Virus record (IMG/VR): IMGVR_UViG_3300020171_000469 | Location: 1-25,526 of that record | Source of the DNA: a virus | DNA: 25,526 nt | Direction: 5' to 3' (one strand) | Shown here: in pieces, positions 208 to 17,656 of the stretch | How the letters are laid out: every line of letters begins with the position of its first letter | Numbering within the stretch: position 1 is the first letter of the stretch | Position numbers and translations under genes: made by a program | Notes under the pieces: model-generated | Databases searched by the model: none | What the model was told of the DNA's origin: nothing | The model's input: the letters and a program-made list of their open reading frames with translations, nothing else

Positions 208-1140
208 ATGAGAGTAGCAATCAACGGTTTTGGGAGGATAGGACGCTTGGTTGCACGCCAACTGAACAACGTTGTTGCAATCAATGACATTATGGACGTG
301 CCGACCAGGGAATATCTCTATAAACATGATTCTATCCAGGGGAGACATGAAGGGACTCTGGATGGAATACTACAGCTAAGAGTTCCCGAAATAGAGGATT
401 TGCCCTGGTTGAACCTTGATATTGACCTTGTTATCGAGGCTACGGGCAAATATACTGGTAAGGACAAAATCCTATGGCATATTACGGGGAGTGCTAAAAG
501 GGTGTTGATAACTTGCCCAATGCCTGACGCTGATATTACGCTGTTTATGGGTGTGAATGAACTGAAATATGTACCATCAAAACATTACATCATATCTGCG
601 GGTTCTTGCACTGCCAACTGTGTAGCCCCTGTTCTGGATGGCCTGGATAGAACCTTCGGAGTAGAAAGTGCCTATCTTGTCAATCTCAATGCCGTAACCC
701 CGAACCAGACTTTGGTTGATTCGCCGCACCCTGACCACCGAAGAGGCCGTAATGCACTTCTCAATATCATTCCCACACAATGTACCGCCGTTCCATGCCT
801 GAAGCAAGTATTCTCGTTTCCTATAGATGGCATGGCCTTTCGTGTGCCGGTAGCCTGTGGCTCGGTATGCCACATCACAGCGGAATTGAAACAAGATACC
901 AGTAAGCAGGAAGTAAACGATGCTTTAGCCGCAATGTCAACTCCAATCCTGGGATATTCCGAAGAAGAGTTGGTAAGCTCCGATATAGTGGGGGATACCC
1001 ACAGTTGCATCGTGGATGGCCTCTGTACACAGGTAGACGGCAAGAGAGCACATATCGTGGCGTGGTATGACAATGAAATGGGTTTTGCGGCTAGAGTGGC
1101 AGATTTAGTCAGATATATAGGAAAGGAGGTTAAAAGTTGA
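208..1140 (+). CDS. GAPDH / erythrose-4-phosphate dehydrogenase-like protein with altered catalytic residue
   Basis: A 310-residue member of the GapA/Epd family, shorter than the usual 330-340. The N-terminus has the NAD-binding motif INGFGRIGRLVARQL. The active-site segment is SAGSCTANCVAP, with the nucleophile Cys134. DGMAFRVP carries the substrate-binding Arg, and the C-terminus has WYDNEMGFAARVADL. The start is ATG behind GGAGGTGAA. The catalytic His of the family (27 residues after Cys in E. coli/Bacillus numbering, C149-H176) falls exactly on Asn161 (LNAVTPNQ). The STG phosphate-loop triplet after NIIP is replaced by QCT; Epd proteins also lack STG there, and the C-terminal HSCIVDG segment also recalls Epd. 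The family oxidises glyceraldehyde-3-phosphate or erythrose-4-phosphate with NAD(P). Given the His to Asn change, this copy may be slow, altered in substrate, or non-catalytic. Family membership is certain; substrate is not. Confidence 0.9.
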   Translation: MRVAINGFGRIGRLVARQLNNVVAINDIMDVPTREYLYKHDSIQGRHEGTLDGILQLRVPEIEDLPWLNLDIDLVIEATGKYTGKDKILWHITGSAKRVLITCPMPDADITLFMGVNELKYVPSKHYIISAGSCTANCVAPVLDGLDRTFGVESAYLVNLNAVTPNQTLVDSPHPDHRRGRNALLNIIPTQCTAVPCLKQVFSFPIDGMAFRVPVACGSVCHITAELKQDTSKQEVNDALAAMSTPILGYSEEELVSSDIVGDTHSCIVDGLCTQVDGKRAHIVAWYDNEMGFAARVADLVRYIGKEVKS

Positions 1141-1175
1141 AAGTTGGGGAAACAATAGAGTGGAGACCTATTTGA
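1124..1175 (+). other. Strong ribosome binding site with a 12-codon TTG mini-ORF
   Basis: AGGAGGT at 1124-1130 lies inside the end of the GAPDH-like gene, 6 bases before a TTG at 1137. From that TTG only 12 codons are open (MKVGETIEWRPI, stop TGA at 1173-1175). The same opening, TTG-AAA-GT, is used by the ThDP gene at 1465. The mini-ORF overlaps the start of the next gene in another frame. It could be a leader peptide, or the true start of the 102-residue protein if one base is wrong or a -1 frameshift occurs near 1170. Confidence 0.35.
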
Positions 1176-1468
1176 AAGTTGCAGAAAAGTTTGAAATACA
1201 GTTGAAATGGAACTGGACTCTTGATGAAAGACCAATTTTCCCTATTATCCACGTTTTCCTTGAACCACCTGGAACAATTCTTCTCTTTACTATTTTTCCC
1301 GATGCTATGTTTATAAGGAGTAACAAGGATATGTCCAGTGTTATAAAAAAGCTAATGCAGAAAATGGATTCGTGGGAAACAGAGCGTGACTCAGCATGCC
1401 GAGTAACCAAAATCTATGGTTATCTGGACTTAATAAAAGTTGGTAATAAAAAGGGGGCTAAACGTTGA
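1160..1468 (+). CDS. Hypothetical 102-residue protein
   Basis: Open from a GTG at 1160 to a stop at 1466-1468, overlapping the TTG start of the ThDP gene by 4 bases, which suggests translational coupling. No family is recognised. It has a hydrophobic central beta-like part (IIHVFLEPPGTILLFTIFP) and a charged helical C-terminus ending in KKGAKR. No signal peptide or clear membrane helix is evident. The upstream Shine-Dalgarno for the GTG is weak (GGGGA); TTG at 1172 is an alternative start. A much stronger ribosome binding site belongs to a TTG at 1137 in a different frame, so the real N-terminus is uncertain. Placement between two metabolic genes hints at an accessory role, which is speculation. 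Confidence 0.55.
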   Translation: METYLKVAEKFEIQLKWNWTLDERPIFPIIHVFLEPPGTILLFTIFPDAMFIRSNKDMSSVIKKLMQKMDSWETERDSACRVTKIYGYLDLIKVGNKKGAKR

Positions 1469-3261
1469 AAGTAGCTGACTATGTCATTCAATCACTCGGT
1501 GACTATGGTATCAAGGACATCTTCGTTGTCTATGGTGGGGCTAACGGCGACCTTATAGATGCCTTTACCAGAGTCAAGAACACCCGTTATATCTGCACCA
1601 TGCACGAGCAGGCGGGGAGCTTTGCTGCCGAGTGCTATGCAAAGGTCACAGGCAAGCCAGCGGTTGCCATAGCCACCAGCGGCCCTGGTGGACACAACTT
1701 TGTGACTGGCATTGCCAACTGCTACTATGATTCAACACCATGCCTTTTTATCACTGGACAGATACACTCGAAGTTTCTTAGACCAGACCCCAGTATCAGG
1801 CAGGTGGGTTTTCAGGAAACAGATATAGTCAGCATAGTCAAACCCATCACCAAGTATGCCAAGATGGTCACAGCCCCACTTGACATCAAGTATGAACTGG
1901 AGAAGGCGTTACACATAGCGCAGAGTGGCAGACCTGGGCCTGTCCTTCTGGATTTACCAGTAGATGTCCAGAAGGCAGAAGTTGAGGTTGATACTCTTGT
2001 TGGGTATGAACCTGTTAGTAGTGCCTATGACATGGTCAAGGTAGGACAACAAATTAACCAGTTCTTCGATGATTTATATGGATGTAAACGTCCTGTCATA
2101 CTTGTAGGTGGTGGAGTGAGAACCGCTAATGCCGTAGACTCTATAAAACGTTTCGCTACGCTTCTCTCAATTCCTTGTTTTCCCACGTGGAATGCCCTTG
2201 ACATCATAACTTCCGACCTGAAGTATTATGGAGGTCGAGTAGGCACTTATGGGGGCCCTGGCCGGAACTTCGCCATACAGAACTGCGACCTACTTCTGGC
2301 GATTGGGAGTCGCATATCGGGGAGAATCACTGGTGGGAACCTCAAATCATTTGCCCGCGCTGCCAAGAAGTATGTCGTAGATGTGGATGAGACTTTATTG
2401 GATAGGAAACTTCAACAAGTCCCCTTTGATGTCAATATCCACTGTGATGCTAAGGCCTTTCTATCTATGATTTTGAAGCGTTATTCACCTTATCCTGTCT
2501 TCAGTGACTGGGTTAAGCAGGTTATGGTTTGGCGGGACAAGTATGACCCTGTGCTACCTGAGCTCGAAGAGCAAAAGGAGTTTGTTCATCCCTATGTCTT
2601 TATGAAGATTCTGTCAGAAGAACTGGAACATAAGGACATCATAGTTGCCGATTGTGGTGGGAACCTCGTGGTTGCCAGTCAAGCCTTTGAAACAAAGATG
2701 GGGCAACGATTCATTACCAGCAATGGCAACTCCCCGATGGGATTTTCCTTTGCCGGTGCGATGGGGGCATGGTTTGCCGCGCCGGACAGGAACGTAGTGT
2801 GCCTGATAGGTGACGGTGGTTTCAACATGAACATACAGGAACTCCAGACCTATAAAAACTATGGAGTCAAGGTCAAGACCTTCATAATGAACAACCATAT
2901 CTACGGAATCACCAAAGCCTTCCAGGAGACGAACTTCCAGGGTAGGGCAGAGGCCTGCGGCCCCAAAGGTTATAGCCCACCTGACTTTGTAAAGGTAGCT
3001 CAGGCTTATGGGATTAGAACTGTCACCATGAGCAATAACGCTGAAATCAGGGAGAAGATAAGAGAGGTTATGGCCTACGATGAAGCGGTAGTTTGTGATG
3101 TCAACATGCACGAATACCATACTTATGACCCTCGAATCTTTGGCTGGAACACGCCTATCGAGGACATGTTTCCATATTTGTCGCGGGAGGAGTTCAGGAA
3201 AAACATGATAATCGAGCCGGTTGGTGACTGGGAACACCCTGTTTATCCTGATATTCATTAA
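1465..3261 (+). CDS. Thiamine diphosphate-dependent enzyme, acetolactate synthase (IlvB)-like
   Basis: A 598-residue protein with the full three-domain layout of the acetolactate synthase/pyruvate oxidase family. The N-terminal Pyr domain has the catalytic Glu48 in MHEQAGSFAAECYAK and a SGPGGHNF segment. The middle domain has VILVGGGVRTANA. The C-terminal ThDP domain has GDGG (Asp450) and the paired Asn476-Asn477 in FIMNNHIYG, the 26-residue spacing expected for the Mg-ThDP motif. It has the residues needed to be active. The family decarboxylates pyruvate-like 2-oxoacids and may transfer the two-carbon unit. The long C-terminal extension (YDPRIFGWNTPIEDMFPYL) resembles, from memory, copies found in surface-polysaccharide clusters, such as those making branched sugars, rather than valine/isoleucine synthases. 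Start TTG has AGGGGG seven bases upstream. No regulatory small subunit is adjacent. Substrate is unassigned. Confidence 0.9.
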   Translation: MKVADYVIQSLGDYGIKDIFVVYGGANGDLIDAFTRVKNTRYICTMHEQAGSFAAECYAKVTGKPAVAIATSGPGGHNFVTGIANCYYDSTPCLFITGQIHSKFLRPDPSIRQVGFQETDIVSIVKPITKYAKMVTAPLDIKYELEKALHIAQSGRPGPVLLDLPVDVQKAEVEVDTLVGYEPVSSAYDMVKVGQQINQFFDDLYGCKRPVILVGGGVRTANAVDSIKRFATLLSIPCFPTWNALDIITSDLKYYGGRVGTYGGPGRNFAIQNCDLLLAIGSRISGRITGGNLKSFARAAKKYVVDVDETLLDRKLQQVPFDVNIHCDAKAFLSMILKRYSPYPVFSDWVKQVMVWRDKYDPVLPELEEQKEFVHPYVFMKILSEELEHKDIIVADCGGNLVVASQAFETKMGQRFITSNGNSPMGFSFAGAMGAWFAAPDRNVVCLIGDGGFNMNIQELQTYKNYGVKVKTFIMNNHIYGITKAFQETNFQGRAEACGPKGYSPPDFVKVAQAYGIRTVTMSNNAEIREKIREVMAYDEAVVCDVNMHEYHTYDPRIFGWNTPIEDMFPYLSREEFRKNMIIEPVGDWEHPVYPDIH

Positions 3262-3480: not shown

Positions 3481-3684
3481 GTGGCAGAATATGATATAAT
3501 TGTAGAGTTAAGATGTCCACAATGTAATAAAAAGCTGGGAGAAAACCTAAAGGGACATATTGAGATTGTCTGCCCCCGTTGTAAGGGGTATGTTAAATTC
3601 CAAACAGAGCTACTTGATAGCCGACCAAAAGGGTCGGCTTTCTTGTTAAAGGGGGCACATGAAGCCAGCAAAAATAACGATTGA
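3481..3684 (+). CDS. com: Com-like zinc ribbon protein
   Basis: A 67-residue protein with a four-cysteine zinc ribbon: Cys12 and Cys15 in RCPQCNKKL, Cys31 and Cys34 in IEIVCPRCKGYVKF. This matches the phage Mu Com type (Zn_ribbon_Com). In Mu, Com binds a hairpin in mRNA and switches on translation of the DNA-modification gene mom. No mom gene is seen in the window. The start is GTG with only a weak upstream purine stretch. The 3' end runs over a perfect hairpin (3619-3639) and overlaps the portal start by 26 bases, so the last roughly 20 residues may not be conserved. A regulatory RNA-binding role is inferred from the family. Confidence 0.75.
   Translation: MAEYDIIVELRCPQCNKKLGENLKGHIEIVCPRCKGYVKFQTELLDSRPKGSAFLLKGAHEASKNND
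3492..3500 (+). promoter_or_regulatory. Possible extended -10 promoter element
   Basis: TGATATAAT is an exact extended -10 (TGn-TATAAT), and the same nine bases recur at the better-supported promoter at 14180-14188. The -35 position here (around 3471-3477) is a poor match, and the element lies inside the com reading frame, where it encodes ordinary residues. A transcript from it would run about 130 bases to the hairpin at 3619. Weakly supported. Confidence 0.25.
3619..3647 (+). terminator. Hairpin/intrinsic terminator candidate before the portal gene
   Basis: AGCCGACC (3619-3626) pairs perfectly with GGTCGGCT (3632-3639) around an AAAAG loop, followed by a T-rich stretch (TTTCTTGTT). This is the form of a Rho-independent terminator, with an interrupted T run that suggests partial read-through. 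It ends about a dozen bases before the portal start, and lies within the com 3' end. It could alternatively be an RNA element controlling portal translation. Confidence 0.6.
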
Positions 3685-5488
3685 GGAAATCAAGGAACTC
3701 CAGCAGAAATGTGAAACATTCTACGAACCCTTATGGAAATGTTTTGAGGACGACGAGAAGTATTTTGAACTCGACTTCAAATCCCTGCTCAATCTTCCAA
3801 AGGAATTCCAGACTGAGGGTATAACACTACCTACAGCAAGAGATGTGGTTGACACTTATGTTGACCACGTTGACTTGAACAATGCACGGGTGACTGTAAC
3901 GCAGCAGGGTAATACTCAGGCTGATTTTGAACGGCAGCAACTAATGAGGAAGTTCTTCCTGGGCATGATATACCGCACCAATGTGGAATCAGACATTTCA
4001 CCGTGGCGTGTGGCAGGTAAACATCACGGGCTGCACGGAATGGGAGTGTTCAAGACCGTCTATGATGCCGATAGATGGCCTGATAAGCCAGAGCAAGGCG
4101 AAAAGGTATCCGACAGTGAGTATGCCGAAAGGCTAGACCAGTGGCGGTATGAAAAGGGTAATAGTTTACCCATTGTCATACAAGCTGTCAATCCCCATTG
4201 CATAATGCCCGATCCTTCTTACGGGGGCAGGCAATTCGTAATCGAAAAACACCCCAGACTCTTACTTGACATCAGGGAACGGTATCCTAATTGGTCTAAT
4301 CCAAAGGGGAGAAAGATAGCGGAAAACGTTGAGTTTGTATCCTACTGGGATGCAAAGTATCGTTGCGATATGGCTGATGGTGAACCTCTTCTGAAAGTCA
4401 AAGGTGGTGTGGCGCAACATAGTTATGGTTTCATTCCATATACCATCATTGATGCTGGGCTGGGGAACCTTTCTTATGATAATAAACCCGAAATGAGGTA
4501 TGTCGGCATTCTCAGATATATTAAAGACCTACTTATAGCAGAAAGTAGGGATTTCTCAATCGCTGATATAATTCTGGCAAGAGTATCATGGGGAGGCGGT
4601 TTCCTTGAAGGCGACAAGGCTAAGGAGGTAACCGAACTAAGTCAGAAGTTTGGGGAATACACTCCACTACCCGTAGGTGTCAAGGTAATTCAGAACAATC
4701 AGCAAATTCCTCCTGAGATGTTGAACCGGCATCTAGCGCGAACTTCCGACTATATTGCTGCTCATGCTGCTCCCAGGTCAGTTAGAGGACTAAGTGAAGA
4801 AGGTGTGCGTTCTGGTGCAGACCGCAGATTGGTAATTAGTGAAGCAGCGGCACGGTATAGATATTCGACAGAGGCATTTCGATATGGGACAGCTCAGGTG
4901 TTAATCAAGTGTGCAAGACTCTTCAAAAATGTCATCCCTGGGGACATACAGGTGTGGGCTAAGACTCCTACAGACGAATTCGATGTCGAGATAAAGAAGG
5001 ACAAACTGAAAGAACCTTTTACCTGCTATGTCGAATTTGCCCCGATTTCAGAGGAAGACGAGTATCGACGGCATGATGACATGGAGAGGTTGCTGGCGCA
5101 AGGGGTAGTTACGCCAAAGTGGGCTAGGAGTCAGATGAGTAATGTAGACCCGATAGCAATGGACTTGGATGAAGAAATACAAAAATTGAAGAACGACCCG
5201 ATGTTACAGGGGCTTGTCTCACAGTATGCTGCGGGCAAACTGGCGGCAGCCATCTCCAAGAGGACAGGTGGAGAAGCAATACCTGGACTTGCTCAAGGGG
5301 CTACTCCTGTGGCACCCCCACAACCAGGACAACCAGAAGCTGGTAGGCAGTTAATTGCGCCTATTCCTCAGAAGGCACAACCAGGGACAGCAGAGGACAT
5401 ACAAAACAAGATGAAGCAAATGAGAAGCCAGACTTCCATGTCACCGACTCAAGGTAGAGGTGTTAACGCAGGAGGTAATAAACCATAA
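3659..5488 (+). CDS. Portal protein
   Basis: A 609-residue protein assigned as the portal (head-tail connector), the twelve-part ring at the capsid vertex through which DNA is packaged and ejected. Support comes from size, the soluble helical/beta composition, the mid-protein segment VNPHCIMPDPSYGG typical of portal wing/stem regions, long helices around residues 275-430, and a flexible Gln/Pro-rich tail (about 535-609) as in many portals. Position before an HNH gene and upstream of scaffold and capsid agrees. The ATG has GGGGG about five bases upstream. The stop overlaps the next start by one base (TAATG). No terminase is seen in the window; it would be expected nearby. The assignment rests on pattern and context rather than a catalytic motif. 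Confidence 0.8.
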   Translation: MKPAKITIEEIKELQQKCETFYEPLWKCFEDDEKYFELDFKSLLNLPKEFQTEGITLPTARDVVDTYVDHVDLNNARVTVTQQGNTQADFERQQLMRKFFLGMIYRTNVESDISPWRVAGKHHGLHGMGVFKTVYDADRWPDKPEQGEKVSDSEYAERLDQWRYEKGNSLPIVIQAVNPHCIMPDPSYGGRQFVIEKHPRLLLDIRERYPNWSNPKGRKIAENVEFVSYWDAKYRCDMADGEPLLKVKGGVAQHSYGFIPYTIIDAGLGNLSYDNKPEMRYVGILRYIKDLLIAESRDFSIADIILARVSWGGGFLEGDKAKEVTELSQKFGEYTPLPVGVKVIQNNQQIPPEMLNRHLARTSDYIAAHAAPRSVRGLSEEGVRSGADRRLVISEAAARYRYSTEAFRYGTAQVLIKCARLFKNVIPGDIQVWAKTPTDEFDVEIKKDKLKEPFTCYVEFAPISEEDEYRRHDDMERLLAQGVVTPKWARSQMSNVDPIAMDLDEEIQKLKNDPMLQGLVSQYAAGKLAAAISKRTGGEAIPGLAQGATPVAPPQPGQPEAGRQLIAPIPQKAQPGTAEDIQNKMKQMRSQTSMSPTQGRGVNAGGNKP

Positions 5489-6006
5489 TGCCTAATATTG
5501 GTGATACGATAACTGGTAGACATATTGGGAAACGTAATAAAGACAGTTATATCTGGTTAGCATGTGGGGAATGTGGTGAAACACGATGGGTGAAAAAAAG
5601 ATATGATGAGGGATTGCCAAAGGTATGTCAAAAATGTTCTTCACATATTGGTAAAGAGCAAATTATTCGGAAGGGCTACATACGTGTCTATTTACGAAAA
5701 GATGATTTTTTTAGGCCGATGGCTAATCGTAAAGGACAGAAAATGGGGGGATATGTCTTAGAACATCGCTTGGTTATGGCAAAATACTTAGGGAGAAACT
5801 TACAACCTTGGGAACTTGTTCATCATAGGAATGGGGACAAGAAAGACAACCGGATTGAAAACCTAGCACTCATCAATGACTTAGGTCACAAACAATTAAC
5901 TACACTTGAAAGTAAGATTGATAAACAAACAGAACTAATAGAAGAATTGCGGAAGGAAATCAAACTGCTTCAATGGCAACTTAAAGAAGTAGGTATAAGC
6001 CCATGA
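5488..6006 (+). CDS. HNH endonuclease with N-terminal zinc ribbon
   Basis: A 172-residue protein. A zinc ribbon is formed by Cys26, Cys29, Cys47 and Cys50 (CGEC and CQKC). The HNH core follows: EHRLVMAKYLGR (His93), then LVHHRNGDKKDNRIENL with His112, His113, Asn121 and Asn125, the standard arrangement of phage HNH nucleases that bind one metal ion and cut DNA. The C-terminus (about 133-165) is a charged coiled coil. The start overlaps the portal stop by one base and its stop overlaps the next ATG (ATGA), so it is fully integrated in the operon. It may be a homing-type nuclease or a helper of packaging, as HNH proteins near terminase/portal genes sometimes are. The nuclease family is clear; the role is not. 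Confidence 0.88.
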   Translation: MPNIGDTITGRHIGKRNKDSYIWLACGECGETRWVKKRYDEGLPKVCQKCSSHIGKEQIIRKGYIRVYLRKDDFFRPMANRKGQKMGGYVLEHRLVMAKYLGRNLQPWELVHHRNGDKKDNRIENLALINDLGHKQLTTLESKIDKQTELIEELRKEIKLLQWQLKEVGISP

Positions 6007-6267: not shown

Positions 6268-8382
6268 ATGCCGGCAGATACGATATTGTTAAGAAATAGG
6301 CTTACGGGGCAGTTGTCTCAAATTCCCACTGAAAATGGAGTTGCTGATGCTTTCCTGGCTGGCGATTGGGAACTTGCAGAACCACCACCAACGTCAGCCC
6401 CTGCTGGTGGAGACATACCCCTATGGACAGGACAAACTGCTGGTGGAGGCACAGCACCCCCAGTGGCACAGACCGCAGCACCAGGTGGGCTCTATGGCCC
6501 AGGAGGTCTTGCAAACACACAGATAGTTTCAACGGGTTACTCGCCAGCAAATCAATTCGATGAAATGTTTAACCCCCGAGGGCAGGACTATATAGGGATG
6601 ACATACCAGCAATACCTTGCTCAGTATTTTCCTAGTTGGGGTCAATCGCCTCCTGGTGGTAGTACGACTGGTGGTGGAACGACTGGTGGTGGGACGACAG
6701 GAACTACCATGCCTGATGACGAAGCCAATGTTAGGCAATGGACATCAGTATATGGTCGCCAACGGGGGCAACCCGGGTATGAGCGCGCAGTAGCAATGGC
6801 ACTTGCAGTAATGCGGGGTCAAAGGCAACCACCTACGAATGAAGAAATTGCGGCATTGGCAGTTGAACCTACGATACCAACACCCACACCTACTCCTACA
6901 CCCACGCCAACGCCTACGCCTGGGCCTACACCCACACCTACTCCTACGCCTACTCCTCCACCGACGCCTACACCTACGCCAGGGCCTACGATACCGCCTA
7001 CGATACCACCTACTGGTGGTAGAACGACTGGCACAGCCGCCCAGTGGATAACCCGTTATGCTTCTGCAAGAACAGTTGCGGAGCTGAACGCGGTATTCAC
7101 TGAACTACGTAATTTGATGAACCAGAACCCAGCATACTTAGATGAAGCTGCCTATGCACAGGTAGATGCAGCTTATAGAACCCACTATACCCGTGTGAAT
7201 GTTGCTGCACCAACGACTGGTGGGGGTACTACAGGTGGTGGGACAGGTGGGGGCGCAGGCGGCGGCGCAGGTGGTGGAACAGTTATTGGGTCAGATATTA
7301 CCATTGGTGGCATTCACTACAGGATAGTAGAGATAAATGGTAGAAGATTTTTAGCACAAGTGATGGACGATGGGAATCTTCAACCATCTGACCAGTGGTT
7401 AAATCTAGGGGCTAGTCCTGAACCAACTGTCGGTAGTTTGTACAATAGCTATGCTGAGGCTCTAGCAGCCGCGGGCACAACGGGTTATACTCCAACGCAG
7501 TTGACATCTGGCGCTTGGGCTTTGGAACCACCACCTGCTTCAGCCACTATGCCCGCTGGATTATGGGGGACTTATGAAGAAGCGAATGCAGCCGCGCCCA
7601 CAGGTTATGTGCCACAGCAACTAGCCAATGGCTATTGGGGCTTAACAACAGCACCAGCAGGGCAAACGTCTTATCCTACTCCTACGGGGGCAGCTCCTAC
7701 AGACACTTATGGTAGGACAGCTACTTGGGATACTGATAATGCGGAATGGAGATACCCGCCTGATTGGGGAAGAGACCCTGCAACACAGGCAGGGGGATAT
7801 ATTTCACCTGCCGAGCAAGCTGCAATAAACGCTCAAACGGCAACTTTGGCTTGGCAACGAGAACAGGCGACTACTCAGGCAGGGCAATGGCAGCAAAACT
7901 TTACCTTACTGCAACAGCAAGCAACCGCAACACAGAACTTAGGTCAAGCTCAACTTGCAGTTGAGCAGGAACGACTGGCGGGGGAACAGCGACAAGCCGC
8001 CACGGCAACACAGCAGACACAGCAGAACTATCTAGCTCAACTTATGGCTCAACCTATGAGTTGGCTACAGTATTCAATGGCTGCAAAAGAAACTCCGGCA
8101 GTCCAACCCTGGATGAAACCTTTGATGCCGCAGGAGTATAAAGAACTTCAACCTGGGGCAGCAATGCCTGGTTGGAGTACAGAACAACCATTGGCTACAC
8201 AGTTGCCAACACTCACCACACCAGCAACACAATATCTTGCTCGTATGAACCCGACATCACGGCAACAATACCTCGGATACCAGCAAATGAAGACTGGAGC
8301 GACACCAGATGACACGGCTTTCTGGCTGAATAATCTAGCTCCACCCGGTAGTCCATACAGCAAACTTACTTATGCGAGGTAG
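6268..8382 (+). CDS. Large low-complexity Pro/Thr/Gly-rich virion-associated protein
   Basis: A 704-residue protein begun by ATG with GGAGGTG upstream. In order: an N-terminal part with GDWELAEPPPTSAPAG (about 31-46); Gly/Thr linkers near residues 130-150; a Thr-Pro dipeptide tract (about 201-250); a short structured part; another Gly-rich linker (about 315-342); two related modules of roughly 35 residues (about 390-425 and 431-465) that share the pattern Y..A.AA..GY.P.QL..G.W.L; then a Gln/Ala-rich long helix (about 515-600) and a C-terminal domain. The N-terminal stretch resembles the end of the modules, giving three related copies. Such composition suggests a flexible virion or ejected protein. 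Neighbours are portal-side genes and the 1132-residue protein. No family recognised; a structural role is inferred from context. Confidence 0.6.
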   Translation: MPADTILLRNRLTGQLSQIPTENGVADAFLAGDWELAEPPPTSAPAGGDIPLWTGQTAGGGTAPPVAQTAAPGGLYGPGGLANTQIVSTGYSPANQFDEMFNPRGQDYIGMTYQQYLAQYFPSWGQSPPGGSTTGGGTTGGGTTGTTMPDDEANVRQWTSVYGRQRGQPGYERAVAMALAVMRGQRQPPTNEEIAALAVEPTIPTPTPTPTPTPTPTPGPTPTPTPTPTPPPTPTPTPGPTIPPTIPPTGGRTTGTAAQWITRYASARTVAELNAVFTELRNLMNQNPAYLDEAAYAQVDAAYRTHYTRVNVAAPTTGGGTTGGGTGGGAGGGAGGGTVIGSDITIGGIHYRIVEINGRRFLAQVMDDGNLQPSDQWLNLGASPEPTVGSLYNSYAEALAAAGTTGYTPTQLTSGAWALEPPPASATMPAGLWGTYEEANAAAPTGYVPQQLANGYWGLTTAPAGQTSYPTPTGAAPTDTYGRTATWDTDNAEWRYPPDWGRDPATQAGGYISPAEQAAINAQTATLAWQREQATTQAGQWQQNFTLLQQQATATQNLGQAQLAVEQERLAGEQRQAATATQQTQQNYLAQLMAQPMSWLQYSMAAKETPAVQPWMKPLMPQEYKELQPGAAMPGWSTEQPLATQLPTLTTPATQYLARMNPTSRQQYLGYQQMKTGATPDDTAFWLNNLAPPGSPYSKLTYAR
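6871..7014 (+). repeat. Thr-Pro coding repeat tract
   Basis: A run of alternating ACN-CCN codons, broken a few times by Gly-Pro, Pro-Pro and Ile-Pro. Third positions vary (A, T, G, C), so the repeat is kept at protein level and is not a simple DNA microsatellite. It forms an extended polyproline-like linker in the 704-residue protein. Confidence 0.85.
7435..7665 (+). repeat. Two tandem approx. 35-residue protein modules
   Basis: Two in-frame segments encode similar modules, one beginning SLYNSYAEALAAAG and the next GLWGTYEEANAAAPTG. Both continue with GY.P.QL and a G.W.L ending followed by a Pro/Ala-rich spacer. A partial third copy occurs at the protein N-terminus (GDWELAEPPPTSAPAG, near 6360-6410). 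The divergence indicates old internal duplication. Confidence 0.6.
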
Positions 8383-11932: not shown

Positions 11933-13003
11933 ATGGAATGGGCTAACGTATCAAAGTACAATTCTTTCAATTCTTACAAGGGTTTGACATACTATGACCA
12001 CTACCAGAAGATAGGAGCGTGGCTAAAGAATGAAGGGAGATTGCCAGCACCGATAGAGGCATCCCTTGACCCCATGAATGCTTGTAATGACATTTGTTAT
12101 TACTGTAATTCCCAGTGTTATCTTCGAGACCATCCTTCCAAGCTACAGCAATGGGACAGGCAGTTCATTGCGGATACGCTTGTGAGGTTAGCAGATTGGG
12201 GAGTCGGGGCTTTCTGCTGGGGTGGTGGTGGTGAATCTCTAATGAATCGAAATATCAGGGGCATGACCAAATTCGGCATAGATTTGGGTATGGAGTGCGC
12301 CATTATCACCAATGGGGCTTTGCTGGATGACGAGTTGATTGACGAACTACTACTCTGTCGCTGGATTGGGATTTCGCTTGATAGTTGTGTGCCACAAGTC
12401 TACGAGGTAGTGCGGGGAAGAGATGATTGTGTAAAAGTCCTGTCCAACATAGCCAAACTGGTGAAAAGGAAGGCAGAGTTAAAGAGCAAAACTGACATCT
12501 GCGCCAAAGTGCTGATATTGCCCGAAACGATTGATACCATAGCCGAAACCTGTCAAGTGGTCAAGCAACTGGGAGTGCAGGACTTCCATGTGCGGCCTGT
12601 AGACCTGGAACGCAACGACTTCAAGGTTGCACAACGATTGAATCTGGACATCCCCAAGATTCAAGGTATCTTTGAAGAATGTCATGCCATGGAGACACCT
12701 ACTTTTCATGTTTACACCGTCACCCACAAGTATAACAATGACTTCCACGTGGAACACAAGTTCAAGAAATGCCTTGCTAGTCCCCTAGTGATGCAGATTT
12801 GCACAGACAAAAAAACCTATCTTTGCGTTGACCATCGCCTAGACCCTCGATTTGAAGTCAAAGGATGGGGAAGTGCTCAACACCGGGAGTTAGTGTTAGG
12901 AGTGAACCCAGACAAAGAGTGCGGGAAATGTACCTGGAGTGAGTATAACCGACAGATGGAAGAATGCGTGACGGAAGATAGGCTTTGTCGGAACTTCCCG
13001 TGA
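11933..13003 (+). CDS. Radical SAM protein with SPASM-like C-terminal cysteine cluster
   Basis: A 356-residue protein. The radical SAM cluster motif CxxxCxxC is Cys51, Cys55, Cys58 (CNDICYYC), and the SAM-binding glycine motif is GGGGES (97-102). The C-terminal third holds seven more cysteines (280, 290, 298, 330, 333, 345, 352), including CGKC. This fits a SPASM or twitch domain holding auxiliary iron-sulfur clusters. SPASM enzymes often modify peptides, proteins or sugars through a 5'-deoxyadenosyl radical. No RiPP-recognition domain is evident in the 50 residues before the first Cys. The ATG is one base after the 45-residue peptide gene, and the 3' end overlaps the next radical SAM gene. 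The substrate is unknown. An active enzyme is likely since all cluster ligands are present. Confidence 0.88.
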   Translation: MEWANVSKYNSFNSYKGLTYYDHYQKIGAWLKNEGRLPAPIEASLDPMNACNDICYYCNSQCYLRDHPSKLQQWDRQFIADTLVRLADWGVGAFCWGGGGESLMNRNIRGMTKFGIDLGMECAIITNGALLDDELIDELLLCRWIGISLDSCVPQVYEVVRGRDDCVKVLSNIAKLVKRKAELKSKTDICAKVLILPETIDTIAETCQVVKQLGVQDFHVRPVDLERNDFKVAQRLNLDIPKIQGIFEECHAMETPTFHVYTVTHKYNNDFHVEHKFKKCLASPLVMQICTDKKTYLCVDHRLDPRFEVKGWGSAQHRELVLGVNPDKECGKCTWSEYNRQMEECVTEDRLCRNFP

Positions 13004-14187
13004 CCCTAATAGTCAACCCCAACAACCGACTTAGGACTAACCTTGCAGCCATAGAACCGCCGTTGTGGTCTGGTCTTACCAGTTCCTACCTACATGCTGA
13101 CATCCTGGATGCCGAAGCCCTGGACTTGACCTTAGACGAAACAGAGCAAAGGATAAGGGAGTTACATCCTGAGTCCGTGATTATCGTGGTCATGGGTAAC
13201 AATCCTTCGGTATCCTCTACCCCCAAGATGCCTGTTGCTGAGGCACTGGCAGAACGTATCGAGGACTTGGACGTGTCCCTGACAGGGATTCACCCGATAG
13301 CAGTAGGCAGTAGGTTCAAGGTTATCAAAACTCCTTTTCACGGTTGTCCTGATATGCCTTTTGACCTGTTGCCGATGGACAGATATAGAGCACACAACTG
13401 GCACTGTTTCGATGGTTCGCCAAGAATGCCTTATGCCTCGGTCTACACCAGTCTGGGATGTCCCTTTGATTGTTACTACTGTCCAATTCATACTCTATAT
13501 AATGGAAGGCGTGTTCGATTCCGACCTGTTGACAATATCTTGAGAGAAATTGATACTCTAGTCACGAAATATAAGGTCAGGAATATCAAGTTCTGGGACG
13601 AACTATTCAGTCTGAAAGAGGACAGGGTAACCGCTATATGTAGTGGTTTGAAGGGATATAAACTCAACATATGGGCATATGCGCGTCTGGACACAATCAC
13701 TGAAAAGATGCTCAAGGCTATGAAAGATGGTGGGATAACCTGGTTAGGCTGTGGGTTTGAAAACATGGACGATGGGAAGGTCACCGCGGGGATAGAGGGT
13801 GTCATAAAGGGGATACGGGATGCGGGCATAAACATAGCCGCCAATTTCATGTTTGGCTTGCCAGAGGATACCCCAAAGAGTGTGAGGGCTACACTGGACT
13901 TTGCCAAGAAACACCTGTTTGAGTATGTGAACTTCTATGTAGCAAGACCTTATCCAGGGTCTCAGTGGTATGCCGACCTGAAGTTAAAGGATGTAGAATG
14001 GGAAGATTTTAACCAGTATGGTAAGAACCGTTTACCCTTCCGTGACATGGCTTTCAAGGAATACTTTACTAATCCAGACTACTTGAGTATGATGGAGTTA
14101 AAATTCGGGGAACAGGGAGTTAATCAGATACACACCATGCTTTCATGGGATGGGCATAATGACAAAGGCGCTAAAAGTGTGATATAA
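12985..14187 (+). CDS. Radical SAM protein of the B12-binding type
   Basis: A protein of 400 residues if begun at TTG 12985 (GGAAG seven bases upstream), or 395 from GTG 13000, which overlaps the previous stop as GTGA; either is credible. The N-terminal 130 residues look like a reduced cobalamin-binding Rossmann domain (NPNNRLRTNLAAIEPPLW, then a hydrophobic IIVVMGNN strand), but no DxHxxG cobalamin-ligand motif is visible. The radical SAM core has Cys159, Cys163 and Cys166 (GCPFDCYYC), a typical IKFWDELFSL strand, GCGFENMDD and MFGLPEDTP. This is the layout of the BchE/methyltransferase-like class. Such enzymes methylate or rearrange unreactive carbons. Pairing with the SPASM-like enzyme suggests a two-step modification. 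The stop codon lies inside the promoter -10 described below. Confidence 0.85.
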   Translation: MSELPVTLIVNPNNRLRTNLAAIEPPLWSGLTSSYLHADILDAEALDLTLDETEQRIRELHPESVIIVVMGNNPSVSSTPKMPVAEALAERIEDLDVSLTGIHPIAVGSRFKVIKTPFHGCPDMPFDLLPMDRYRAHNWHCFDGSPRMPYASVYTSLGCPFDCYYCPIHTLYNGRRVRFRPVDNILREIDTLVTKYKVRNIKFWDELFSLKEDRVTAICSGLKGYKLNIWAYARLDTITEKMLKAMKDGGITWLGCGFENMDDGKVTAGIEGVIKGIRDAGINIAANFMFGLPEDTPKSVRATLDFAKKHLFEYVNFYVARPYPGSQWYADLKLKDVEWEDFNQYGKNRLPFRDMAFKEYFTNPDYLSMMELKFGEQGVNQIHTMLSWDGHNDKGAKSVI

Positions 14188-15015: not shown

Positions 15016-15900
15016 ATGGCTATTACGACAACTACTGTAATGGCCGATACGGTTCCAACGATACTTGAAAAGGCCAGGTTCACAGAACAGTTCATTGCCG
15101 AAATGAGTAGATTGGTGTGGAAGATAACCAAGAAACTCCATGATGGCAAGAATGTGAATATCCCGTATTTTGGAATTGTGACGGCCAAAGCATTGACTGA
15201 GGGTGTTGATAACGCTGTTTCCGAGACTATGAGTGACACCCTGGTTACGATCACCCCCGGTGAGGTCGGATGTAAACTCATCCTGACCGATAAACTTGTC
15301 AGAGACGACAACGAGGACATCAAGGCGGCTGCGGGACGGATTCTGGGCAATGCAATGGAGGTCAAGAAAGACACAGACCTCTTGGCATTGTTCTCGTCTG
15401 CCTCTACTACCCTGGGTGGTGGTGGTGTAGGTACTATGGGGGTTGTGGCTGCTGCCAGAGCTATCCTGAAAGGTTGCCCTGTAAGCTCTGGTGGGCCTGC
15501 GCCTGGTAAACTGGTGTATGTCTTGCATCCCTATGTCTCCCTGGACTATGTGGACATCTTGACACCACTGGGCCCAACAGCAGGTACGACCTCTCAGCAA
15601 CCTGGTGGAGAAATGACGGATGATGTTCTACGGAACTACGGCATTGGCAAGATGTTCGGGATGCCATTGATTGAGGACGGCAATATCACGGCTGCTGCCG
15701 GAACCTGTCATGGTGGCATATTTGCTACTGGCGAAGGTGGGGCGATAATCCTGGCCACGGCAAAGGAATGGGACGTAGAAGCAGAACGAGACGCATCCCT
15801 TCGAGCCACTGAACTCAACATTGTGGGTGAATACGGCGTTGGGTATTACCTGAATACCTGGTGCGTAGACATGAACCAAGATGCTGCGTTGCCTGGTTAA
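15016..15900 (+). CDS. Major capsid protein (HK97-fold type)
   Basis: A 294-residue protein begun by ATG after AAGGAG, 9 bases after the scaffold stop. It opens MAITTTTVMADTVPTILEKA, then VWKITKKLHDGKNVNIPYFG, a helix-rich segment, and a Gly-rich region. The segment KLVYVLHPYVSLDYVDIL and the end (NIVGEYGVGYYLNTWCVDM) match the pattern of many phage N4-gp56-like/HK97-fold capsid proteins. It should form the icosahedral shell. There is no N-terminal delta domain long enough for HK97-like self-scaffolding, in agreement with a separate scaffold gene. The order scaffold, capsid, decoration-like protein supports the call. Confidence 0.85.
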   Translation: MAITTTTVMADTVPTILEKARFTEQFIAEMSRLVWKITKKLHDGKNVNIPYFGIVTAKALTEGVDNAVSETMSDTLVTITPGEVGCKLILTDKLVRDDNEDIKAAAGRILGNAMEVKKDTDLLALFSSASTTLGGGGVGTMGVVAAARAILKGCPVSSGGPAPGKLVYVLHPYVSLDYVDILTPLGPTAGTTSQQPGGEMTDDVLRNYGIGKMFGMPLIEDGNITAAAGTCHGGIFATGEGGAIILATAKEWDVEAERDASLRATELNIVGEYGVGYYLNTWCVDMNQDAALPG

Positions 15901-16753: not shown

Positions 16754-17656
16754 TTGGACGAACAGGTGTTACCCATGAGTATGGACACGCAGGAAAAGCT
16801 GATTGACATAGTTGTGCCTACGCATAACCATCTGGAACTAACAATAACCTGTATGCAGAATCTTTACGAACATACCAGGACACCTTTCCATCTCATTGTT
16901 GTAGACGATTCAACGGATGGTTTAACACACCGTTACTTTGCACAACTCAAGAAGGAGAAAAAGAATATCACCTTTATCCATTCCAATACGCCATACAAAA
17001 GTGGCAATCAGTTCTTTAACATTGCTTTTCAGCATACTCAGAGCAAGTTTGTTGCTACGGTAATGAATAGCAACAAAGTAGAACCAGACTGGGAAATTGT
17101 TGCCCTGCATCTCATGGAGAGAGACCCCAAAATTGGAATCATCGGGTTCAAGAATATTTTCCCTGATAGGACAATAGAAAGTGCTGGAATCAGGATCGTC
17201 AAATTCCTACCCACAGATATGGGAAGGGGTCAATGTAGTCACAGATTGTCCAACACCTATGAATGTGATGCAGTCCAATGGGCATTCTGTTTACTACGAA
17301 AAGAGGCCATCCCAGTCTTAGAGGAGGATGTCTACAATGGCTTTCGAGGATGGGATGACATAGATAACTGCCTCGTAATGAGACGAAATGGATGGAACAT
17401 TCTGTATTGTGGCTTAGGCGTGGCCTTCCATGAACCAAGAGCTACCAGAGGGGATAACAGTCAGAAAGCAGCTTTGGAGAATGCTCAGAACAGGGAGATG
17501 TTTTTCAAACGATGGGGTATGTGGGTTGACTTTAAGAAGGACAATCCCCAGGCTCAAGAACTACTTCCCGATTACCCAAAGAGTGCCCCGGTTATGAAAG
17601 CACCAATGCCTAGTGCTACCTCACCTATACCTGAAAGAGTATTGGTGAAAGTGTAA
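16754..17656 (+). CDS. Family 2 glycosyltransferase (GT-A fold)
   Basis: A 300-residue protein begun by TTG, seven bases after a perfect AGGAGG; the first ATG (16775) has no ribosome binding site. The GT2 start motif is DIVVPTHNHLELTITC, with the nucleotide-binding LIVVDDSTDG. The acceptor-side motif GWDDIDNCLVMRRNGW contains the expected catalytic Asp pair, followed by the conserved His in VAFHEPR. The usual LNNDT metal-binding motif reads MNSNK (104-108), with Asn107 where the Asp is expected. It should transfer a sugar from a nucleotide-sugar to an acceptor, perhaps the virion or a host glycan. It has no membrane segment. The C-terminal 50 residues are Pro/Lys-rich. Placed between capsid and tail genes, it may glycosylate a structural protein, an inference. 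Confidence 0.85.
   Translation: MDEQVLPMSMDTQEKLIDIVVPTHNHLELTITCMQNLYEHTRTPFHLIVVDDSTDGLTHRYFAQLKKEKKNITFIHSNTPYKSGNQFFNIAFQHTQSKFVATVMNSNKVEPDWEIVALHLMERDPKIGIIGFKNIFPDRTIESAGIRIVKFLPTDMGRGQCSHRLSNTYECDAVQWAFCLLRKEAIPVLEEDVYNGFRGWDDIDNCLVMRRNGWNILYCGLGVAFHEPRATRGDNSQKAALENAQNREMFFKRWGMWVDFKKDNPQAQELLPDYPKSAPVMKAPMPSATSPIPERVLVKV

Follow-up and report, generated by a model that had tools for sequence, protein, structure and literature searches.

A phage GAPDH-like protein with asparagine at the position of the catalytic histidine and a putatively remodelled active site

The stretch of DNA analyzed here (the window, 25,526 bases) spans the whole of an IMG/VR record that is classed as linear, a class that often denotes a fragment. 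It carries a major capsid protein, a portal-like gene, and other structural-type genes, and comprises the following features:

208–1140, plus strand: GAPDH-like protein of 310 amino acids with Pfam domains and a predicted GAPDH fold; the Cys149 equivalent is kept, the His176 equivalent is Asn161
607–609, plus strand: codon of the nucleophile Cys134 (C149 equivalent), from alignment to solved GAPDHs
688–690, plus strand: codon AAT of Asn161 (H176 equivalent), from alignment
778–786, plus strand: codons of Q191-C192-T193, which replace the phosphate-loop STG, from alignment
871–873, plus strand: codon CAC of His222 (D241 equivalent; Asp/Glu in relatives), a window-specific His, from alignment
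1160–1468, plus strand: ORF of 102 amino acids between the GAPDH-like and ThDP genes, with no PHROG match
1465–3261, plus strand: acetolactate-synthase-like ThDP enzyme of 598 amino acids, best solved relative 8rph (JanthE, YerE-like)
3659–5488, plus strand: portal-like protein, named by position and size, with relatives in viral contigs and without a Pfam or PHROG match
11933–13003, plus strand: radical SAM protein 1, conserved in the related phages L260 (62%) and L018 (41%)
12985–14187, plus strand: radical SAM protein 2, closest among NCBIfam models to B12-type radical SAM enzymes, with conserved counterparts in related phages
15016–15900, plus strand: major capsid protein
16754–17656, plus strand: family 2 glycosyltransferase with relatives in L018 and L260

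The GAPDH-like gene, the 102-residue ORF, and the ThDP gene succeed each other on one strand, the latter two overlapping by 4 bases. Together with two small ORFs, this GAPDH–ThDP cassette occupies the place in front of the portal gene; in the viral contigs L010, L255, L257, and L259 the portal gene is closely preceded by a large terminase-like ORF, so labeled from a reading of its motifs (the gap in L255 is about 200 bases). On the other side of the portal gene, directly 3′ of it, the window contains an HNH endonuclease gene (5488–6006), which is probably a mobile insertion since in L010, L255, and L257 the portal gene directly precedes the next ORF. A 704-residue ORF (6268–8382) contains long Thr-Pro and Gly-rich repeats, and the portal relatives match its C-terminal part only.

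The GAPDH-like ORF starts with ATG, is free of internal stop codons, and keeps its frame across all 310 codons; its G+C content is 0.468, compared with 0.470 for the window. Both Pfam GAPDH domains (PF00044 and PF02800) score above their cut-offs. The scores for the NCBIfam families lie below theirs: 269.8 versus 367.2 bits for the GAPDH-I equivalog (TIGR01534), 225.7 versus 450 bits for the ArsJ-associated GAPDH (NF033735), and 192.3 versus 530.55 bits for Epd (TIGR01532), a family of the same superfamily whose match nonetheless spans the whole length and which uses the same His as GAPDH. AlphaFold2, supplied with an alignment of the window protein and 59 of 160 fetched relatives, returned a model with a mean pLDDT of 96.6 and a pTM of 0.93, and a comparison of this model with PDB structures placed GAPDHs on top (2g82: Z 44.5, 1.2 Å over 308 residues).

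Cys and His form the catalytic dyad of GAPDH known from textbooks. In the alignment with Thermus GAPDH (1CER), the window protein has Cys opposite Cys, Asn opposite the catalytic His, and QCT opposite the STG/TTG triplet, with no gap in between; this gapless alignment from the Cys to the phosphate loop identifies Asn161 as the equivalent of His176 and QCT as that of STG. It thereby bears out the original prediction, which had noted a retained nucleophile Cys134, an Asn instead of the essential His 27 residues further on, and QCT instead of STG after NIIP: The spacing from C134 to N161 is indeed 27 residues, and NIIP is followed by T and then by Q191-C192-T193. The Bacillus-type residue numbers used here (T151, T174, H176, T208, and G209) were set from the alignment and from a numbering that we presume to apply.

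With type I phosphorylating GAPDH (GapA), the window protein shares the fold, the NAD motif, Cys149, T150, R195, R231, and WYDNE. Residues kept in the alignment are S133, C134, T135, T164, R178, R179, R181, R212, Y287, N289, and the NAD-site D27, the substrate residues T179, R195, and R231 being represented by T164, R179, and R212. The two differ in that both His176 and D181 are replaced by Asn, T208-G209 by C192-T193, and D241, which is Asp or Glu in the relatives, by His222; moreover, T151 and T174 are changed, and one segment of the NAD domain comprises 23 residues versus 33–39 in genome relatives and is thus about 11 residues shorter. The earlier description of the remaining motifs as intact is too strong in view of T151A, T174N, A197C, a lost Pro, G204F, G95S, D181N, the change of D241 to His222, and the shortened NAD segment. 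The protein is a homologue of GAPDH with the same predicted fold, but since defining features of a functional type I GAPDH, including the score for its equivalog family, were tested and found lacking, it should not be filed as one.

To place these exchanges in the context of the family, we counted conserved columns in 100 representatives drawn from 162 of 168 homologue rows (L108, L109, L110, L106, L149, and L091 were left out). The window protein keeps 47 of the 56 columns that are at least 95% conserved. The nine departures, G95S, T136A (T151), T159N (T174), H161N (H176), T192C (T208), G193T (G209), A197C, a missing Pro, and G204F, lie mostly around the active-site pocket, while the nucleophile, the NAD Asp, the S-loop Arg residues, the substrate Arg, and the WYDNE Tyr and Asn are kept. 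In a leave-one-out count the median number of departures is 0, and only L101 (14) departs as often as the window protein. Such a concentration of change in the pocket is unlike random decay and reads as remodelling; within this one record, the pattern of substitutions makes an isolated sequencing error or random decay less likely.

We further examined the site in 160 relatives, namely the 80 best of 89 from viral contigs and the 80 best of 169 from genomes. All of them (80/80 in either set) have His at the H176 site, as do 29 of 29 further genome loci and all 31 loci obtained from an H-form pattern, many of which are on contigs already counted. The phosphate loop is likewise conserved: The T208 site is Thr or Ser in 79/80 viral loci (with one gap) and Thr in 80/80 genome loci, and the G209 site is Gly in 70/80 and 80/80, respectively. 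When DNA patterns were applied to 297 genomes of one phylum, 280 contained the H-form and 0 the N-form; over viral contigs, the H-form pattern yielded 32 stretches and the N-form pattern two (L011 and L012), neither of which is a GAPDH gene. These patterns are not strictly alike, as the N-form demands Ala after Asn, while the H-form allows Ala or TCN Ser in its viral version and more in its genome version. A single-protein query for viral relatives returned none. Because His occupies the site in all other loci examined, we do not regard Asn161 as a product of chance. The Asn form is known from one record only, the nearest relative found is 49% identical to the window protein, and the question raised in the original prediction, whether a phage clade shares the Asn, is answered in the negative for the phage GAPDHs examined (80/80 viral loci with His). 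Many “phage” records with a GAPDH are short unannotated Listeria, Staphylococcus, or Enterococcus pieces, which are probably host DNA and were excluded as phage evidence. Also excluded was L108 (5851–6828), an apparent viral GAPDH with its nucleophile Cys changed to Asn, which is probably an assembly chimera given a duplicated ORF on the contig and the fusion of the GAPDH part to an N-terminal stretch that looks foreign. Our literature search found no paper joining H176N and GAPDH; His176 mutants of GAPDH were reportedly studied in about 1989.

In the tree, the window protein forms a long branch (1.94 versus a median of 0.23) without firm neighbors. The nearest cellular GAPDHs by identity, at most 49%, are of the deltaproteobacterial kind or from Cloacimonadota. 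The shortened NAD-domain segment (22–26 residues) recurs in 39 of 80 viral loci, namely 37 of marine type, L101, and the truncated L110, whereas it measures 33–39 residues in 80/80 genome loci. A single phage origin of the window protein with these short-segment viral rows is disfavored when their union in one clade is tested (AU p 0.0207, with long branches present and L101 in the group); the trimming may accordingly be parallel. The marine-type phage GAPDHs (L042, L047, L068, and others) are phage-borne and trimmed like the window protein, but keep the His, and many have Ala for D32; it is their joint clade with the window protein that the above test disfavors (AU p 0.02). Ala occupies the position of this NAD-type Asp in 43 of 80 viral loci, while the Asp is kept in the window, and the marine-type clade is possibly NADP-dependent. 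L101 (6001–6981) encodes a very divergent GAPDH-like protein with S-I-C-D-A-N at the nucleophile. Like the window protein it is phage-borne, forms a long branch, is encoded in a sugar-type gene cluster (by eye, aminotransferase-, cupin-, SDR-, sugar transferase-, and aldolase-like ORFs), and has the short NAD segment; unlike the window protein, it keeps both His and Cys, has Asp for T150, and differs in the region past the His and in its neighbors.

Beyond the protein itself, we turned to the adjacent ThDP gene. Among PDB entries its product matches 8rph best (E 8.8e-96), an acetolactate synthase scoring less well (E 1.9e-83), and its best NCBIfam model is acolac_lg, a biosynthetic acetolactate synthase, at 421 bits versus a cut-off of 538.35. 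The gene product thus looks YerE-like by its best match among solved structures, with acetolactate synthase as the nearest NCBIfam family; JanthE differs from it in having CDG where the window enzyme has a GDG motif. According to PMC12188165, 8rph is JanthE, a YerE-like enzyme that couples α-keto acids to ketones, and according to PMC12247030, C-branched sugars are made by YerE-like enzymes and also by ThDP enzymes of the α-keto acid dehydrogenase type. A relative of the ThDP gene is present in 18 viral loci, six of which also carry a relative of radical SAM gene 2 (L013–L016 at 35%, L018 at 41%, and L023 at 33%); the remaining 12 gave no match to the other window genes tested. L018 additionally carries two glycosyltransferases, radical SAM 1, a cupin, a methyltransferase, and a GHMP kinase that is nearest to the HddA model but below its cut-off. 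In two phages of the 38% group, L017 (9796–10731) and L023 (9793–10731), the ThDP gene is followed by an ORF that by eye resembles ketopantoate hydroxymethyltransferase (PanB).

A closer phage is L260 (capsid 61%, radical SAM 1 62%), which carries radical SAMs, a glycosyltransferase, a GHMP kinase, a cupin, and a split E1-type ThDP enzyme; within the 18.6 kb read, no YerE-like gene was seen. The subunits of the split enzyme (L260 8637–9212 and 9400–10014; also L023 16951–17562) adjoin, in L260, the radical SAM, GHMP kinase, cupin, and glycosyltransferase genes. The split enzyme seems to be an alternative way of filling the role of the YerE-like gene, and the whole looks like one type of module with exchangeable ThDP enzymes. 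The GAPDH is not a constant partner in this module, as a Gp_dh_C match was found in 0 of 12 related viral records, several of which are fragments. Our searches found no publication joining phage, acetolactate synthase, radical SAM, glycosyltransferase, and auxiliary metabolic; among the matches listed for phage, YerE, and branched sugar, only PMC12247030 contains YerE, and it does so without “phage”.

From the sequence, the predicted fold, the substitutions, and the neighbors we infer an active protein, and we tentatively favor, at somewhat less than an even chance, an NAD-binding enzyme of GAPDH fold whose rebuilt pocket would serve specialized, non-glycolytic aldehyde or acyl-thioester chemistry in a phage sugar pathway. 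The retained thiol, NAD site, and substrate Arg argue for chemistry, and the loss of the base and the phosphate loop makes efficient turnover as a phosphorylating GAPDH unlikely. Loss of the base normally costs most of the activity; it need not abolish the chemistry, since the H277N mutant of ASADH keeps 1.0% (PMC3276109, Table 1). In the favored scenario, a phage would have taken up a cellular type I GAPDH and then remodelled it, giving up the general-base His and the phosphate loop but not the catalytic Cys, the substrate Arg, or the NAD site. A hemithioacetal or thioester would form on Cys134 and be stabilized by Asn161 without activation by a His, which would result in slow or specialized aldehyde or acyl-thioester chemistry, probably without efficient phosphorolysis, instead of glycolytic turnover. 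Non-phosphorylating aldehyde dehydrogenases, whose fold is unrelated to that of GAPDH, combine a Cys nucleophile with an Asn that stabilizes the intermediate.

The most likely job of such an enzyme would be one step of a phage-encoded modified-sugar pathway, given that its gene lies just upstream of the one for the YerE-like ThDP carboligase and that the phage also encodes two radical SAM enzymes and a glycosyltransferase; it is this adjacency, on one contig, that suggests the link. The suggestion in the original prediction of selection for something other than glycolysis fits the clustering of departures in the pocket, the retention of nucleophile, NAD site, Arg, and fold, and the YerE-like neighbor. 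Among the options it had offered, an altered dehydrogenase agrees best with our data, and nothing was found to favor the other two, a decoy subunit and a binding protein. A more specific version, in which the phage turned GAPDH into a step of C-branched-sugar synthesis, with a Cys–Asn pair like that of aldehyde dehydrogenases and no phosphorolysis, feeding or finishing the product of the YerE-like carboligase, which the phage glycosyltransferase would then place on a surface glycan, seems quite unlikely when taken as a whole.

Several other explanations were weighed against the favored non-glycolytic enzyme. That the protein is an ordinary, slower phage GAPDH or Epd, encoded by an auxiliary metabolic gene and oxidizing the usual substrate with Asn tolerated at low flux, is unlikely: The kept fold, nucleophile, NAD site, and substrate Arg, the abundance of GAPDH genes in viral contigs (89 relatives), and the residual activity of the ASADH mutant would agree with it, but His is found in all 80 other viral loci examined (best 80 of 89), the phosphate loop and other pocket residues are altered too, and the GAPDH-I and Epd scores fall below their cut-offs. 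We consider it improbable that the protein is a pseudoenzyme that binds NAD or joins host GAPDH tetramers and thereby lowers or redirects host activity, or that serves as a binding protein. Although the loss of the catalytic His from an otherwise preserved fold with most conserved residues would suit this role, a pure decoy needs neither the nucleophile nor the substrate Arg, and the His at the D241 position and the shorter NAD segment do not speak for mixing with host subunits.

Distinctly improbable, too, is a relocation of the base, with the window-specific His177 or His222, or another residue, serving Cys134 as in ASADH. ASADH belongs to another family but shares a related Cys-based mechanism and, like the window protein, has no His at the GAPDH-His position. 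Sequence comparison shows His174 to be common in relatives that also carry the catalytic His, while His177 replaces mainly Leu and His222 replaces Asp/Glu. An ungapped comparison with the ASADH sequence suggests that S219 corresponds to the ASADH His position, and the DSSP string of the model places H222 three residues past S219 on a strand. By strand parity, H222 would thus be located on the opposite face from R212 and S219, which argues against it as the base; a precedent for relocation is offered by ASADH, which draws its His from a different part of the chain (PMC3276109). A sequencing or assembly error, for example at 688–690 alone, or a decaying gene is just as doubtful, for although there is a single record, no relative above 49% identity was found, one base change separates CAY from AAY, and AAT also occurs two codons upstream (N159, another Thr site in relatives), the frame is intact, 47 of 56 conserved columns are kept with the departures clustered in the pocket, and a single-base error would leave eight further departures unexplained.

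The window protein is a natural member of the GAPDH family whose fold is predicted with confidence and whose dyad site lacks the His. It points to a phage gene group of ThDP carboligases, radical SAM enzymes, and glycosyltransferases that resembles virus-borne pathways for unusual sugars. If the protein is active, it would show another way for the GAPDH fold to work and would be a natural counterpart of the engineered His mutants.
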